A stretch of 64,000 nt of DNA. Origin: Monilinia fructicola. Lineage: Eukaryota > Ascomycota > Leotiomycetes > Helotiales > Sclerotiniaceae. Where the stretch lies: contig VICG01000005.1 in NCBI GenBank assembly GCA_008692225.1, positions 1,893,001 to 1,957,000 of the forward strand. The letters run 5' to 3'. Below are positions 7,166 to 16,064 of this stretch, piece by piece; position 1 is the stretch's first letter; each line of letters opens with the position of its first letter. The notes under the pieces were generated by a model. It had not been told where the DNA came from. It did not search any database and was given only the letters and a program-made list of their open reading frames with translations. A program made the translations under genes and the position numbers.

Positions 7166-7173
7166 GTGCTAAT
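7166..7173. repeat. Candidate target-site duplication, left copy (GTGCTAAT)
   Basis: An 8-bp word identical to 16057-16064. It lies exactly 8 bp outside the perfect inverted repeat, as does the right copy. The length fits the 8-11 bp duplications of Mutator-like elements. The 8 bp between duplication and perfect repeat differ at the two ends. Confidence 0.55.
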
Positions 7174-7181
7174 GAGTCGAC

Positions 7182-7208
7182 AGGTCGGATGGACGTCCAT
7201 CTGAGCTC
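7182..7208 (+). repeat. Left 27-bp inverted repeat of the element
   Basis: Matches the reverse complement of 16022-16048 at all 27 positions. The middle is itself a palindrome (ATGGACGTCCAT); the flanks (AGGTCGG on the outside, CTGAGCTC inside) give it direction and show a true inverted arrangement. Confidence 0.9.
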
Positions 7209-7226
7209 CCGTGTACTCGGAAAAAC

Positions 7227-7262
7227 GTCGGGTGGACTAGTGGGGCGCGGCTGACCTTTTGC
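7227..7262 (+). repeat. Left subterminal GC-rich module
   Basis: Contains GTCGGGTGGAC (7227-7237) and, 15 bp on, GACCTTTTGC (7253-7262). The same two words recur near the right end. The first is in direct orientation; the second occurs both inverted (15946-15955) and, as GACCTTTT, direct (15984-15991). These are candidate transposase contact sites in an otherwise AT-rich element. Confidence 0.6.
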
Positions 7263-7781
7263 GAAATGGGTCCGCAACCTCTTCATAATTTATGCAGAAC
7301 GTCCGATCGTCGATCTCATTGAACAGTAGATTTGCGTGATTGAATTGATCGTACCTCTTCAATTGATTCTAATCATAGCCGTATGGAAACGTTTAATAAA
7401 CGTTTAATAAACGTTTTCAAAACGTTTCCAAAACGTTTATGCCCACCTAATTCTCAAATGTTATATGTCATCTATAAAGCAAAAAAGAGATTCGAGAATT
7501 AATTAATATTGCAAGCAACCTCAATTGAATCATTTATCTACCTTGATAATTAACGTTGTATCAATTCGAGTATTGCTTTTTTTCGTTTATATTATCTGAT
7601 ATTTCCCACCGAATTTTTATTCCAACTACAACTACTCTCGCTTACAACTTTTTTTCGATCTCCCCATCAGTGCTCTATCAATTCATTTAGAAATCACTTA
7701 CTAAACGTTTTCAAAACGTTTAGAAAACGTTTACAAATCGATTTAAATTCTCACTTATAGATACTTGATTTTTTTTTCGAT

Positions 7782-9111
7782 ATGGCATCTGGACCTAATG
7801 CAACTGTGAATACTCTTGTTTATTCAACGAAGGATCAACAAGCAGACGCATATCTTCGTAGTAACCCTCGTCCCTCTGGATGTTCTTTGTGGAAGTGTGA
7901 TGAAGTAAGTGTTATTCAATCTCAAAACGTTTAATAAACGTTTATTAAACGTTTTCAAATCGCTTTTTGTAGTATATTTATTAACATTTATTAATTATCT
8001 TAGAATGATGTTTATCAAGTGCCTGCGGGAGAAATATTTTGTCGTGCACCTTGGGGTCCACGCAATGAAATTTGTCCAAAACTCGTATGTTATCATTGAA
8101 TATAAACGTTTTCTAAACGTTTTCTAAACGTTTTCAAATCATTTAGATCAAATACAATGCTACCAACAATCTTCGTCTTCATTTGAAGCAAAAACATTCG
8201 GATCTTTCGTTTGATAAGGGGAAAAAGGGTAGTACGAGAATGGTCAGTACTCATTATTAAATAATTTTTAAATAACTTTAGTATTGTTCTTTCTATTCGT
8301 TTTGAAAACGTTTTCTAATCGTTTTTAAAACGTTTGCAGGAAGATCAAGCAGTCGCTCGGGAAGCATTCGCCCAATGCTATCGTGCTCACCTTGAGTACG
8401 AGAAGTCAATTGGTGAAGTAAGACAAGAAACTGATGATAGATTGATCTCTCAAAACGTACGTGATCTCACTATTATTTTTCAACCTTTTTGAAAGCATTT
8501 TATAAACGTTTTCTAATCATTTTTTAAACGTTTTCTAATCATTTTATAATCATTTTGAAAACGTTTTCTAAACGTTTAGAAAACGTTTTCACTTTCCAAC
8601 ATTTATTAATTTTATATGCAGAGTCATTTTCTCTCCATCAAAGAAATTGCGAAAGAGAAAACGTGATGAACGCAATCACGAGCAAGCACGCGTTCGAGAG
8701 GAAGCAGAGCAAATTGCATCTGCTGGACCTTCTCGTGTGGTGAAAGATTGCCCTGTACGCAAGTATAAGGGAGCTATGAGAGTAAGTTTAAACGTTTTCA
8801 AAATGGTTAGAAAACGTTTAGAAAACGTTTATTAAACGTTTTCGAGATAAGTTAACTAACGTTTGCTAATTGTTTATCAATTGTTTAGCCCAACGTAACG
8901 CGAATGCGAGCTGGCTGTGGGTTTAAACCCAATCAAAAATGTGATCATTGTGTTGCTGCTTCGCGTGATCGTTGTCCTGATGTTAGTGCACAGGATTGGA
9001 CTAACAATGGAGGTTGTATAATTCTTTTTGAATTATAGGAAACCTTCAAATAGAGTCGACGATGTTGAAGATGAAGATGAAAACGATGATGAAGAGGGTA
9101 GTGTTGAATGA
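7782..9111 (+). CDS. Element gene A: BED/C2H2-like zinc-finger protein
   Basis: Six exons can be traced: 7782-7904, 8004-8084, 8147-8242, 8340-8456, 8644-8781 and from 8889. Exons 2 and 3 give a finger with FCRAPWGPRNEIC and NNLRLHLKQKH (C-x9-C then H-x4-H), like the BED/C2H2 fingers of transposon proteins. Exon 5 is very basic (KLRKRKRDERNHEQARVR). The last exon has PNVTRMRAGCGF and a Cys-rich stretch KCDHCVAASRDRC. The acidic end (DDVEDEDENDDEEGSVE) is in a different phase from the preceding exon, so the final junction is unresolved; without an intron the protein would stop at 9038. Every intron with room for it carries AACGTT arrays. Likely a DNA-binding helper of the element, by inference. 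Paralogue of gene B. Confidence 0.65.
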
Positions 9112-9816
9112 GTTAGATTGGGATTTTCTTTATATTTGGGAAATATTCTTTTTGTTACTTCGAAATATTTTCAACTTGAATCCGAAATGTTTTTTAAACG
9201 TTTTCTAATCATTTTATAAACGTTTTCAAAACGTTTAGAAAAACGTTTACACAAGCAATTTTTTCATATTAACGACCTTTACGAATTCTTCAACTAGGTA
9301 GCATAATAATAAAAATATATGGTATTGAAAGAATTTTATTTAATAGTCATTTTGGTATGTATACAAATAAAGATCTCAGGTTAAATTCACCAATCTTATT
9401 ATAAAGAAGTATTAAAAAATATTAATCAAACACTTATAAAATATCAAAACAATACTTATAGAGTACTATATAAACACTTATATAGCACCATACAAACACT
9501 AGAAATCATCGATCATAATATAAAAAAAAGACAAACAATATATACCTACAAATTATTTAAAAAACGTTCTCTAATCATTTTCTAAACATTTCATAAACGT
9601 TTTCGAATCGTTTAATAAACGTTTTCTAAATGTTTTCTTTCTACATATCTCCTCAATCTCCATTGTTTAATTTACATTCTTCGGTCATGGATATACGTTT
9701 ATCCTTTCGCTAAGATATCCACTTTATTTTTGTATTAAAACTATAGTATTTCCACATCGTGAATCGTTCATTCTCTCTTCTAACTTTACTTTCAATCGTT
9801 TAAATCAAAATACATT

Positions 9817-11796
9817 ATGTCTACTACTTACCCTTCGTCTTTTTCTCAACGACCAAATCATTGTCCTCCATATGAAGAGATCAAATGCAATGTAATGTTA
9901 CCCTATTCTAAATCAATTCATTATTAATATATTTATAGGATTCGCAATGTACCAATAAATCAAAATGTGTTAAAATCTACCCTGGGGAAAGGTTTTGTCG
10001 AGTTCAAATTGATGAAGATGGAGAATTGTGCACTACAAATGTATGTAACTCAATTCATTTCGAATTCATTTTCTAAACGTTTTTCAATCGTTTTCTAATC
10101 GTTTTCAAAACATTTCCAAATCGTTTTTGATTCGTTCTATAGCTAATTCTTGATCAGCATCAATATAAAACAAACTAATGCTTTACTTCTACATTTGCGT
10201 AAAGTTCATAAAGAGGAAGTTCACTTTCATTCCGTTCAAGGTGTACCAAATACGGTATGTTGATTATTGATAAATAATTATAATCAACCTTTTTTTAATT
10301 TTATTCTTAATAGGCAATGAAAAATGCAGCATATAAGCATTTCAAAGCTGTATATGCTTATATTCAACAAAACACCAAAGAGAAAGATAAAAATATTGAA
10401 ACTAATGATTCAATCAACGAATCGTCGAAGGTATCTATTAAAAAAACAATCCGAAAATGTTTTCAAAACGATTAGAAAACGTTTTCAAAACGATTAGAAA
10501 ACGTTTTCAAAACGATTAGAAAACGTTTTCGAATCATTTTTCATACATTTTCTGATATCATTAAAATAGAATTCTCTACACTCAAAAAGCTCGAAGAGGA
10601 AACCTCCTACTCGACGTAAATTGAATAAAAGTCGACAACAACAACGCGCTGAATCTCCAATACTTTCTAGTGGAGATCAAACTCAAGAATCAGGACCACC
10701 AGAACCAGAGATTCCTGCATCCCCTCAAGATAACATTCCAATCCCCTCAGAAATCGATTCGGAATCGACTTCAAAACGTTCTGAAAACGTTTTGACATCA
10801 CAGCCTACGGACCCTTCAACTACTACTACTTCCTCTACATTAACACCACATTCAACAACACAACTACCTCAATCTGCTCCGAATCCTACTAGCAAAACGT
10901 TAGAAAAGCGAAAAAATGATTCCTCTGAAGAGAATAGTACTAATAATCATGAAATAACAACTACTGAAAGTTCTATTCTAGTAAGAATTCTATTCAAAAC
11001 CTTTTGAAAACGTTTAAAAAACGTTTAAAAAAACGTTTAAGAAACGTTTAAGAAACGTTTAAAAAAGGTTTATGCTAACTTATACAAAAAAGAAAAAACA
11101 ACGAATCAATCCATCTACACAAAAATTTATTGATATTTGTAATGATATCGATAGTGCACATCCTCCCACTCCTCCTAAACTTACTGTAAGATTGTTCCGT
11201 TTATTTTTCCCTCAGTTTGCTCGATGAAAGAATTCATTCTAATACGTTTCTTTATTATTATTAGCCAAATACTAGGCCTCGATTAGATACAAAGATGAGA
11301 TGGAATGCAATTGGTGGACCATTCGATCTACCATATTATAATCATTTGCCCAACGTTACTGAAATGTTAAAAATGCTTAAAAGGAGCTCGAAATGTTGTA
11401 TGAATTGTTCATCAAGACCATCAGGATGCAATCTTAAATATAAATCAGGGAAAAGCTGGAAGGTTTGCAAAAGTAAGTTGATATCTACTCAAATTGAAAA
11501 CGTTTTGAAAGCATTTTCAAAACGTTTACTAAATGTTTTCAATAGAATGTCCATGTCCTAATTGGCATGCACCATATTTCGTATCTGATGCATGCGATGA
11601 TATTAGAATGTTTAAACAGCCTGTTGATGAGAATGGGAATATGATTCGATTTCATAAAACGAATAATACTGATACTGATGTTGATTCTGATGCTGGTAGT
11701 GGTAGTGGTAATGTTAGTGTTATTAGTATTAGTGGTAGTGGTAGTGGTAGTAGTAGTGTTAACACTACTAGTAGTGTAGGTGATAGTGATAATTAA
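9817..11796 (+). pseudogene. Element gene B: paralogous zinc-finger protein, one frame break
   Basis: Starts MSTTYPSSFSQRPNHCPP. Exon 2 has YPGERFCRVQIDEDGELC, matching the PAGEIFCR finger of gene A, and exon 3 supplies the second half (TNALLLHLRKVHKE). Reading exon 3 in register with gene A needs one A fewer in the run at about 10168-10171; as given, the frame stops. Later exons carry a basic patch (SSKRKPPTRRKLNKSRQQ), a long Ser/Thr/Pro/Gln-rich linker (to 10980), and a Cys-rich C terminus (PNVTEMLKMLKRSSKCCMNC, then KECPCPNWHAPYF). The end is an Asp/Ser/Gly-rich tail, with the stop at 11794-11796. The PNVT motif, Cys-rich block and first intron position are shared with gene A, so the two arose by duplication. 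Confidence 0.6.
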
Positions 11797-12013
11797 ATAA
11801 TTGATATTATTATTTTCAATCATTTATATATTGATCGTTATGTTCTAATATTATATCAATCACTTTTGTAGAATTTAGGTTGAAAAATAGATCGCATTGC
11901 TATTCGAAATTGCTTTCTAAACGTTTAGAAAACGATTCGAAAACGTTTGATAAATGAATTGCTCTTAAAATAAAATAAACTACTAGGAATTTATCATTGC
12001 TTTTGAAGTGATA

Positions 12014-15000
12014 TTATGTACATTGTAGTTCCCTGATTTCTCGATCCCTTCGTGCTATTTCTATTTGTCTTTCTTTGAGTTCCAATTCCTTATTTGCAAG
12101 TTGTATTCTTAAATCAGCTTGTCTGACTGATTCTTCCAATGTAGCAGTTATATTGCTTTGTTGTTGTTGTATTGGAACAGATTGCTGTCTACGTGATCTT
12201 CTTATTCTAGGTGGTCGGCCGCTACTACTATGATTATAATCAGAATTAGATAATTGAGAAGATTGATGATGAATCTGTTGCTCTTCAGGAATATCGTCAG
12301 ATAACAACAGATTGTTTTCTTGTGCAAATTGTTGATTCTTCTTTTGTTTTAATACTAAATGAATTATTAGCGAATGGAATTAAATCATTTAGAAAACGTT
12401 TAGAAAACGTTTAGAAAACGTTTTCTAAACGTTTATTAAACGTTTATCATTAGATTAAAATACTCACAACTTCTTTTTCGCCTTTCATTTATTCGATCAT
12501 ACACAGAACGACCTCGCCATGAGTTTGTAACCCCTAATATTGCATTATCTCGACCACCAAAATTGATTCGAAGATCATGCTTTCGCCCTCTAGTAAATAA
12601 TTGTTAGATTGATAGTAAAACGTTTAGAAAACGTTTTGAAAACGTTTAAAAAACACTTACTTTTCGATCGAAATAGCTAATGATAACGCTTTGCCATAAC
12701 GATTAGTTTGAGCTCCGCTTGCCTCTACTGCATTTGTATTTCGAATGCAATTTCGAAATGTTGCTTTATCCCCTAAAAAGAATTGCTCGTTTAAACCCGA
12801 AATAATCCAATCCCATTCTTTATGAGTGCACCATCCCATCATATCTGGACTTAAAAATAAAACTGTTAATAAACGTTTTCTAAACGTTTTCTAAACGTTT
12901 AAAGATAGAGACGTGAAAACCTACTAATCCTGTCGAACACATTCTAATAATGCATAGCAATCGTTTTTTGATTTTGCAATACTTATATCTTTTAGAAGAC
13001 CTGCATAACCATCATTTGCAATGATACTATTATCAATTCCTCTTTGATAATGTACCAAGCAATAAATCATAGTAGATTGAATGTGAAATTGCCATGGACG
13101 ATGCTGTGGATCAATATCACTTAAGAAACAACCCCAACCTAAATCATTATTGATATATTAGTTAAAAATTCGTTGAATATTGATTAAACGTTTTCTAAAC
13201 GTTTAAAAAACGTTTTCTAAACGTTTAGAAAATGAAATTTGCTTACCATTTGCTTGTTTTTGCACACATATCCACCACAATTGCTTTAATTCCATTCCCA
13301 TGAATATGATGAAAGTGAAGAGGTGGTTGATCAGCATTTTCCAATGCTTCATTAATACATCGATACCAATTTTTGAAAAGTTGGTAGAAACCCTCAGCAG
13401 TTTCAACGTCGGTATATACCCGTGAAAGCTGAGTTACTATAAAATGGTTAATATATAATCAAAAAACATTTATAAAGTATTTTCGAAGTGAATATACTAC
13501 ATACATTGATCAATGTTTTCTTGCTCTATATATTGAGCAAAAATGACTTCACGCCATTTGCCAGCTGTACGTTTATAACTGGTATCTATTTGAAAAGTAT
13601 CGAGATTTTTCAAATATAATGCTTGATCCAAATAAAAACAATGAATTTCTCGACGATCACCATAATTATACATTCGTCGAATGTATTGTTGTGTTCCGAA
13701 TTTATTGTAATGATTAGCTCTATAATCATACCATACACCTAATAATATTAGTTAATAGATTTGAAAACGTTTAGAAAACGTTTAGAAAACGTTTATTAAA
13801 ACGTTTTGAATATATTACTTACCAGCCCATTCAACACCGTAAGGATACCTATCAATCTGTTCCAGCATTGCGATTGCTTGAATTTTTGATTTGTTATTCC
13901 ATGCAGGATGTGCATTCATTAACTGCTCGATATTCAACTCTTGACAGAGTCGATTCATTCCTTCACTTGCAATGATATCACCTACAAATTGCATTAATTT
14001 TTCGTTTTTCTTGTTAAATAAATATAAAATATAAATTACTTACAATACCCACGTCCAAAGTTGATAAAGTTTTTAACTCGATCAACAATTAATTCAGTTA
14101 ATAAAGCAGGACTTCGGGATGGTGGTGGAGGCACATGTGTATGTTCACCGTGAGAAGTGATCAGAATATAAGGGTGGTCTTGAAGATCGATTGGAACAAT
14201 GATATTGAATGTTACATCGCATTCAATACGTTGCAATGGTTGATTTCCATCATGATGAGGAACACCTAAAAAACTATTAATAAATAAGATACAAAAACGA
14301 GTTGAAAACGATGTGAAAACGATTTAAAAACGTTTTGAAAACGTTTTCAATATAAGTTAAAAATGAGTTAAAAATGAGTTAAAAATGAGTTAAGTAGAAG
14401 TTGAAGACGTACCACAATCACTTCGACGTGTTTGAGTACCAAATACTTGAAAGCATTCAGATGGTTGATTAGGGTGAAATCCGTAAGTTAATAAATCCAT
14501 CATATATTCCCAATTGATTGGTCTTGTTGGATTGATAGTATGATAATAATGTTGAAAGAATTCATTATTATTAGTTATTTTATTGCAGCATATATAATAA
14601 CGTGCATCACCATTGAAGTTCTAATCAAAAATCAGCTTCAACACACTTCGAAAACGTTTTTAAAACGTTTAGAATGTGATTAAACTTACTGTAGTATTGA
14701 AATGTCGAACTTCTGGTACTCCATCGCATAGTATTGTCTCCCCAGTATTAGGATCAATTTTGTAGAATCCACAGCCATACTTTTCAAAATGCTTTTTAAC
14801 TGTATGATAAGTTCTAAAGAGGATGAGTTAGAAAATAGTAATAAAAAACGTATTCTAAACGTTTTCGAAATATTTTCAAAACGTTTTCATAATGATACAT
14901 ACGTTAATGTTTCTTTTTGTCCCAAACCAGCATTATATTCCTCAGCAAAAACACGTTGACTAGAATGTGTTCGAATCCGTTTGTCTTCCCAATCGCTTGA

Positions 15001-15700
15001 TGTCCAACTAGTATGCGAACTAGAAATATAATTTGATGCATGAAGACATGCATTTATTCCGCTGCATTTTTTGATTGTACGTTTAACCTGAATACCTCCC
15101 ATCCAATGTGAAATGGTAGTTTTCCTGTGAAGTGATGATCGATTTGTATGTGTTGAATATTGAATCTAATTATAATTTATTAACAAAATGCTTTAAAAAT
15201 GCTTTAAAAATGCTTTCGAAACGTTTTCTAAATGGTTTCTAAACGTTTTGAAAACATTTAGGATATACATACCTTTGAACATACTTTATCTGCTTGCTCA
15301 GGTGTCAATTCATGTACATTGATTAAATTGCCAATTCCTCGTTTCTGAAGTAGGGGGATATAATGGGCAATCAATCACATAATTGATTTGTTCAACACTT
15401 AATGGTTCTTGTGCTCTATCTGAAAGTAGAAATATTGGATTCTCTTGAAGATTATCTATTGCTTCCTATTTATAAACGATTAGAAAACGTTTTAGAAACG
15501 AGTTAAAAATGTGTTCAAATAATCTTACTTGAATATTTTCATCCAAAGGATATAATTCTGGTAGTTCATCCTCAACAATTCTCTCTTCCAACTAATTCGG
15601 TATCCCAATTAGAATATAAATGTTCTCCTTCTGGTAGGGTGATACCTAATTCGTGTATTGTAGCAAGACAAGAACGACGTAACCAAGTGATAGGATGCAT
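12014..15700 (-). pseudogene. Element gene C: Mutator-like DDE transposase, about 13 exons, several frame breaks
   Basis: Reading leftward from ATG 15700-15698, about 13 exons follow. Exons near 14266-14043 hold a GCM/WRKY-like zinc-binding segment (ECDVTFNIIVPIDLQDHPY, then SHGEHTHVPPPPSRSP). The catalytic core follows: first Asp in FQIDTSYKR (13586-13584), second in AIVVDM (13272-13270), C-x2-H in CLVH (13061-13050), and Glu in NTNAVEASGAQTNRYGK (12725-12723). This order fits Mutator-like transposases. The C terminus has an AT-hook-like GRPPRIRRSRR and a charged coiled-coil-like tail ending REIRELQCT. Frame breaks are seen near 15585-15592, at a GATT duplication (15369-15376) and at an A5 run (13256-13260). 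This many introns is unusual for a transposase. Catalytic residues are my alignment by eye. Confidence 0.7.
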
Positions 15701-15945
15701 TTTGAAAAGAGAACAATAAATGAAAGAAAGAAAGGAAAAATCTATAAATGAAAGGAATAAGAATCATTATTTAAACGTTTTCGAAATGTTTTCTAAACGT
15801 TTGATAAACGTGTTAAAAAAGATAAATAAATACGGTGGTTGGGAGTGGATCAATTGTATAATAATGCTATCTAAATGTTTTCTAAACGTTTTCGAAACGT
15901 TTAGAACTACGATGTGGATCCATATTGCACAAAGTTATGAATTCG

Positions 15946-15991
15946 GCAAAAGGTCGGGTGGACCTGCGCGACGTTTTGCGGTTGACCTTTT
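15946..15991. repeat. Right subterminal GC-rich module
   Basis: Holds GCAAAAGGTC (inverted copy of the left GACCTTTTGC), overlapping GTCGGGTGGAC at 15953-15963, and then GACCTTTT in direct orientation followed by a T run. The module thus repeats the left one partly inverted and partly direct. Confidence 0.6.
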
Positions 15992-16021
15992 TTTTTTAAG
16001 TGATGCCCCACAGGTCCATAT

Positions 16022-16048
16022 GAGCTCAGATGGACGTCCATCCGACCT
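16022..16048 (-). repeat. Right 27-bp inverted repeat of the element
   Basis: Perfect inverted partner of 7182-7208. The reverse complement reads AGGTCGG, then the palindrome core, then CTGAGCTC. Confidence 0.9.
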
Positions 16049-16056
16049 ACATACCT

Positions 16057-16064
16057 GTGCTAAT
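16057..16064. repeat. Candidate target-site duplication, right copy (GTGCTAAT)
   Basis: Direct-repeat partner of 7166-7173, in the same orientation and at the same 8-bp distance from the inverted repeat. Confidence 0.55.

Follow-up and report, generated by a model that had tools for sequence, protein, structure and literature searches.

A multi-gene DNA transposon of the ascomycete Monilinia fructicola carries, in its introns, its spacers and the regions just inside its ends, short arrays of the palindrome AACGTT that recur at 11-bp intervals. In the places examined these arrays are confined to a single family of elements, and the short members of the family retain them at near-constant distances from both ends. 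Judged from these features of the sequence, the arrays are probably cis-acting landing pads with multiple sites, on which a DNA-binding protein encoded by the element itself and specific for this sequence would dock.

The element occupies positions 7174-16056 of the window, the 64-kb stretch of DNA that was analyzed as a whole, which is part of a genome assembly of 44,028,109 bp in 20 contigs; for this species a genome of 44.05 Mb and the operation of repeat-induced point mutation (RIP) have been described (PMC8959702). On either side stands the 8-bp target site duplication GTGCTAAT, read from the sequence at 7166-7173 on the left and 16057-16064 on the right. The outermost 8 bp are unlike at the two ends, being GAGTCGAC on the left (7174-7181, forward strand) and ACATACCT on the right (16049-16056), and are followed inward by a 27-bp inverted repeat common to both, AGGTCGGATGGACGTCCATCTGAGCTC, at 7182-7208 on the forward strand and 16022-16048 on the reverse strand. 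With up to three mismatches allowed, the genome contains 64 matches to this repeat on each strand; a perfect 14-bp palindrome, GATGGACGTCCATC, can also be read inside it. Forty short loci fetched around inverted-repeat matches comprised 36 elements with paired ends and four loci without them. The 36 short elements share the inverted repeats and the duplication length of the autonomous copy, and their left and right terminal 8 bp are identical to those given above in 32 and 28 cases, respectively. The duplication is perfect at the exact border in 19 of the 36, matches at seven of eight positions in four more, and in some others is displaced by a base. Individual loci show peculiarities of their own: several inverted-repeat matches lie within 0.2 kb at L104 (C2:1454174-1456338), with no normal element between them, L087 apparently has two left-type ends, and one end of L110 is shifted by a base.

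Three genes were modeled in the element, the models being our own and adjusted by eye. Gene 1 (7782-9111, forward strand) encodes a Cys/His finger protein, and the database protein P0002 (252 aa) that corresponds to it comes from another copy. Gene 2 (9817-11796, forward strand) encodes a second finger protein, and gene 3 (12014-15700, reverse strand) a putative transposase, 57% of whose model, the C-terminal part, is covered by the database protein P0001 (486 aa). The products of genes 1 and 2 have in common the stretch GExFCR...ExC...TNxLxLHLxxxH, of the form C...C...HLxxxH (BLASTP E 5e-6, in one comparison), and gene 1 has a zf-BED match at a Pfam E of 0.11, below the Pfam cut-off. We call gene 3 a putative transposase because of its size, because it sits in a mobile element with many copies, and because its product is one that we take to resemble fungal DDE proteins. 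The spliced model of this gene has no Pfam match above cut-off, and neither a hAT transposase domain nor a hAT dimerization domain appears in it in Pfam at E values up to 1; a DH_ALS2 match with a low nominal E-value falls below its own cut-off and was taken as chance. Pfam searches of exons and spliced models, a search of solved structures, protein searches and an AlphaFold model gave no assignment to a transposase superfamily. The sole database relative found for gene 3 is the same gene from the same species, and its AlphaFold model has a pLDDT of 40, with only a C-terminal helix confident. No match was obtained in Rfam at gathering thresholds. The count of 24 introns used below excludes two apparent ones close to the beginning of gene 3 that are probably not introns, the window copy differing there from the other copies compared by single bases that are likely sequencing or assembly slips.

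The original prediction had spoken of some 80 copies of AACGTT where only a few would be expected, and the counts agree with it: of the 90 copies in the window, 83 lie in the element and 7 in the 55.1 kb outside it, and 500 dinucleotide shuffles of the element contain 5.1 copies on average and at most 14. Likewise, the arrays stop at the element ends as had been stated, the first AACGTT beginning at 7388 and the last occupying 15896-15901. The recurrence every 11 bp is equally plain, with an 11-bp peak in the autocorrelation: 35 pairs of sites are exactly 11 bp apart (the shuffles give one at most), and of the 53 neighbor gaps no longer than 70 bp, 49 are multiples of 11 and four are 11k+1. 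The wider unit of the arrays consists of AAACGTTT (77 copies) and a 3-bp linker, and where gaps span a missing unit, 10 of the 16 in-phase units read ATCATT, AACGAT or ATCGTT. That the phasing is helical, as was also proposed, is plausible, although the period of 11 bp departs a little from 10.5, and tandem repetition of any unit of this length yields the same spacing without a structural demand. The strand orientation of the linker relative to the genes was considered and dropped, since no gene but gene 1 (11 to 2) gave a suggestive ratio; in gene 3 it stands at 11 to 9 in the gene sense.

Single arrays of the window element hold one to five AACGTT. From the left, a subterminal array of five sites (7388-7437) and a single site at 7552 precede an array of three sites just 5' of gene 1 (7704-7731) and the arrays in the introns of that gene (7926-7953, 8105-8132, 8307-8334, 8505-8587 and 8791-8863). 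Two spacer arrays follow (9197-9247 and 9563-9623), the second of them upstream of gene 2, which has arrays of its own at 10478-10527, 11009-11059 and 11499-11526 and a single site at 10076. Beyond the spacer array between genes 2 and 3 (11920-11947) come the intron arrays of gene 3, those of the first half at 12395-12444, 12619-12646, 12872-12899, 13187-13225 and 13766-13805, and the rest at 14329-14345, 14653-14669, 14858-14885 and 15220-15247, with a single site at 15486-15491. The right subterminal arrays (15774-15801 and 15885-15901) are at the same time upstream of gene 3, and the starts of all three genes are preceded by arrays. Sites are present in 19 of the 24 modeled introns (five of five in gene 1, four of seven in gene 2 and ten of twelve in gene 3); 57 copies fall in 2,208 bp of intron, 22 in the spacers and ends (1,886 bp together) and four in 4,789 bp of exon, figures that are near rather than exact in that the borders of three introns are approximate (no GT or AG at one end). 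The clusters were thus rightly placed in the introns and spacers of all three genes. Their avoidance of exons holds for all but four of the 83 sites, and those four, at 10775 and 10786 (together 10775-10791), 10896 and 11352, all lie within gene 2. Such avoidance would follow without any rule of its own, since reading frames would be broken by a unit that is 11 bp long and often contains TAA.

The distribution between introns and ends bears on a narrower form of the landing-pad explanation, with which it overlaps in probability, namely that the arrays serve transposition only, as subterminal repeats to which the transposase binds, like those of Ac or En/Spm, the intron arrays being by-products of the spreading of the unit. 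Subterminal repeats of the Ac and Spm types are well known, and the short elements with two arrays keep them near their ends. However, a subterminal function does not need dense sites in introns, yet sites are found in most introns and are denser there than in the spacers and ends. We therefore view a role restricted to transposition as possible but rather unlikely.

The short elements are 461-2,334 bp long, and from this length and their low G+C content we infer that they have no genes of their own. They contain 404 AACGTT in 36.5 kb, against 6 in the 25.7 kb of their flanks, so that the DNA around them is poor in the motif, in agreement with the original prediction, and of their 288 gaps no longer than 60 bp, 220 are multiples of 11. 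Counting as an array two or more sites, 33 of the 36 have at least two arrays; an array may hold up to 10 AACGTT, and the longer of the short elements (1.1-2.3 kb) have up to five arrays. For the 21 elements below 1 kb with at least two arrays, the distance from each inverted repeat to the nearest arrayed site is 151-173 bp on the left in every case; on the right it is 153-195 bp in 18 elements and 73-74 bp in three (L110 was left unflipped in this comparison, its end being shifted by a base). L108, at 461 bp, has a single array midway between its ends and no matching duplication. A RIP-aware consensus of the short elements matches the ends of the autonomous element at 98% over 65 bp and 91% over 118 bp. 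Between ends and arrays there is little else: the interiors of the 21 elements below 1 kb have 3.4% G+C, compared with 34% in their 150-bp ends. These small elements look stripped to ends and arrays, which would make them the best evidence for arrays acting in cis.

The bare interiors themselves admit more than one history. C:G to T:A change amounts to 6.6% in the ends of the short elements and 15% over their middle columns, arrays included, and the in-phase array units show about 6% (30 single changes in 258 units). The linkers within the arrays have 19% G+C, compared with 24% in the window element; because this linker G+C is kept too, what is retained is the array and not AACGTT alone. Both the light C:G to T:A change and the kept linker G+C weaken the view of the bare interiors as a footprint of RIP. 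These interiors may be ancestral, A+T from the start, and need not be the footprint of selection. At 3.4% G+C, the interiors of the 21 elements below 1 kb (among L071-L110) hence offer little for RIP to mutate.

The arrays are also tied to the family in the genome at large. The genome contains 210 matches to a 19-bp array word, and the 100 of these that were listed form 18 clusters, all 18 of them inside elements bounded by the inverted repeats of the family (compared by eye). A neutral 11-bp minisatellite that slippage and conversion had amplified inside one element, and that settled where coding is left unbroken, would account for the avoidance of exons through frame disruption, and it fits the whole-unit length change of 22 bp that separates one near-identical copy (C3) from the window copy. 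It would not lead us to expect distances as constant as those on the left in 21 of 21 elements and on the right in 18 of 21, in interiors that are nearly A+T, or the confinement by which no array word lies outside the family among the 100 of 210 matches listed. A neutral origin is accordingly improbable. The same near-constant distances from both ends in the short copies are beyond an intron-spreading repeat, which the original prediction had offered as another reading, if it is taken alone.

Ten full-length copies were found in the genome with a transposase exon, three of them RIP-mutated. In nine of them the bounding inverted repeats stand at a distance of 8.8-8.9 kb, and the tenth (C8) aligns over its whole length; all matches listed in protein searches of the genome fall within these ten. 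Five copies show no substitutions relative to the window copy over 3.2-4.7 kb each, and C3, apart from its difference in length, shows two over 8.7 kb. Many of the small indels among the six near-identical copies are likely sequencing slips. The window copy has a few private small indels relative to the six others, some in coding exons, which are probably assembly slips. At C11:101282-111149, only about 0.1 kb separates a full-length copy from a short element. Of the mutated copies, C4 is affected lightly: over 5.9 kb it has 234 substitutions, of which 233 are C:G to T:A; in the parts of this copy that were read there is a strand imbalance, with 161 G to A and 72 C to T in window orientation. 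Identity to the window copy is 83.4% for C16 and 86.0% for C8, and C:G to T:A changes make up 1,459 of 1,476 and 1,229 of 1,249 of their substitutions, respectively; this dominance is the mark of RIP. The two diverged copies carry the arrays, as the original prediction expected of other copies, keeping 51 (C16) and 52 (C8) AACGTT with 18 and 17 neighbor gaps of exactly 11 bp, and the arrays are at the same places, since both copies are colinear with that of the window.

Protection of AACGTT sites from RIP was considered and rejected. Site cytosines are changed in 43 of 166 cases (26%) in C16 and 38 of 166 (23%) in C8, against 67 of 144 (47%) and 66 of 144 (46%) for other ACG cytosines, but in a matched though small control, ACG in AT-rich surroundings, the figures are 10 of 33 and 9 of 33. 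Because AT-rich ACG is spared equally, RIP lends no support to protection or selection. A regression gave a site effect on RIP of z -6.6 over all cytosines and z -2.9 for CpG alone; we discount it, the matched ACG control being closer even at 33 per copy. An older exon list, with the same four exon sites, was used for the comparison of RIP contexts. The outermost 120-140 bp of C16 and C8 show lighter RIP than the element interior (28 of 143 cytosines changed in the ends of C16).

RIP acts on the family, and in Neurospora it can sense short homologies spaced 11 or 12 bp (PMC4858203), a rule now in print whose agreement with the period of the arrays is an intriguing coincidence. That the 11-bp phasing interacts with the homology search, the arrays being a decoy or bait, is nevertheless most improbable. 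The arrays, with one to five AACGTT in the window element and up to 10 in the short ones, are short, whereas the search integrates over hundreds of base pairs, and over a 100-bp stretch a spacing of 10 bp was strongest and spacings of 11-15 bp weak (PMC4858203); moreover, three of the ten copies have been RIP-mutated, arrays included in the two that were read throughout (C16 and C8). Still harder to credit is a role in splicing or as intron-length elements, which the presence of arrays in most modeled introns might suggest, as arrays are also found in spacers, ends and short elements and five of the 24 introns do without.

Binding sites for the element's own proteins, which the original prediction had put forward, remain the best reading, and one that gains from the near-constant distances at which the short copies keep their arrays from the ends; the analysis shows the anatomy, from which we infer that a protein binds, and which protein it is and what would follow are proposals. 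The likeliest binders would be the two finger proteins that genes 1 and 2 encode and that are related to each other; the transposase would come next. In the scheme that we favor, the palindrome would be bound as a dimer by a protein of the element, probably the gene 1 or gene 2 product, and the 11-bp repeat would place dimers on adjacent sites at roughly the same side of the helix, where they could bind cooperatively. The pads that lie some 150-200 bp inward from the two ends would aid the assembly of these ends for transposition, and through those upstream of genes and within introns the protein would be distributed over the element, serving gene control or freedom from silencing. One may speculate further, with the odds leaning against it, that this fungal family has evolved, independently of the VANDALs, its own anti-silencing or RIP-evading system operated by a small finger protein on the arrays. 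Under such a system, the finger protein would coat the element by way of the phased arrays in promoters, introns and ends, and autonomous and short copies alike would stay active although the genome mutates its repeats. If a protein of the element does bind the arrays, the family would be a fungal counterpart of the plant VANDAL anti-silencing systems, and one in a lineage where repeats are mutated as well as silenced. The window copy with six near-identical ones (compared over 3.2-8.7 kb each), the three RIP-mutated copies and the 36 short elements make up a natural experiment, in which the short elements hint at the cis requirements of mobility.

Among known systems, the Ac/Ds elements of the hAT superfamily resemble the Monilinia element in their 8-bp duplication, perfect here in the window copy and in the 19 short elements noted above, and in the AAACG common to both motifs. 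The repeats of the Ac/Ds transposase, AAACGG, occur in subterminal arrays only, whereas the Monilinia motif is palindromic and phased, and no hAT domain was found. The hAT target consensus is nTnnnnAn; the duplications of this family depart from it, with T at position 2 in 8 of 20 and A at position 7 in 6 of 20. En/Spm (CACTA) elements likewise have arrays of a short motif near both ends, kept in defective copies, and their accessory protein TnpA binds these subterminal repeats; the sites there are subterminal and not in most introns. CACTA elements are marked by a 3-bp duplication and CACTA termini, in place of which the Monilinia element has an 8-bp duplication and the termini GAGTCGAC and ACATACCT. 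An element of Monilinia fructicola is known under the name "Mona", to which the short elements might be related. A surface-level search of the open-access literature on Monilinia transposons, on anti-silencing, on subterminal repeats and on the motif turned up no description of the AACGTT-array family, and AACGTT was not found in the papers retrieved for the motif, which is weak evidence of absence. Minisatellite-carrying MITEs, such as those of Porphyromonas gingivalis, are similar in being short inverted-repeat elements with internal tandem repeats (PMC4596501), but the Monilinia arrays are common to the autonomous partner and are placed nearly symmetrically.

The claim that no system like this had been described was too strong. 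The nearest parallel in layout is that of VANDAL21 and VANC21 in Arabidopsis, the VANDALs being elements with a MULE-type transposase; we liken the Monilinia element to VANDAL21 by layout alone. Both are multi-gene DNA transposons in which arrays of a motif lie in introns and in the non-coding DNA between genes and at the ends; in VANDAL21 the short motif that forms these tandem repeats is bound by VANC21, and the two coding-region probes tested in that study lack it (PMC5735166). VANC21 also causes loss of methylation (PMC5735166, PMC10398659). In contrast, the Monilinia motif is a CpG palindrome with 11-bp phasing, in an element that has clear 27-bp inverted repeats and whose fungal host has RIP. 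What is new beside the plant system is thus the RIP-exposed fungal setting, the 11-bp phasing and the retention of the arrays in short elements.
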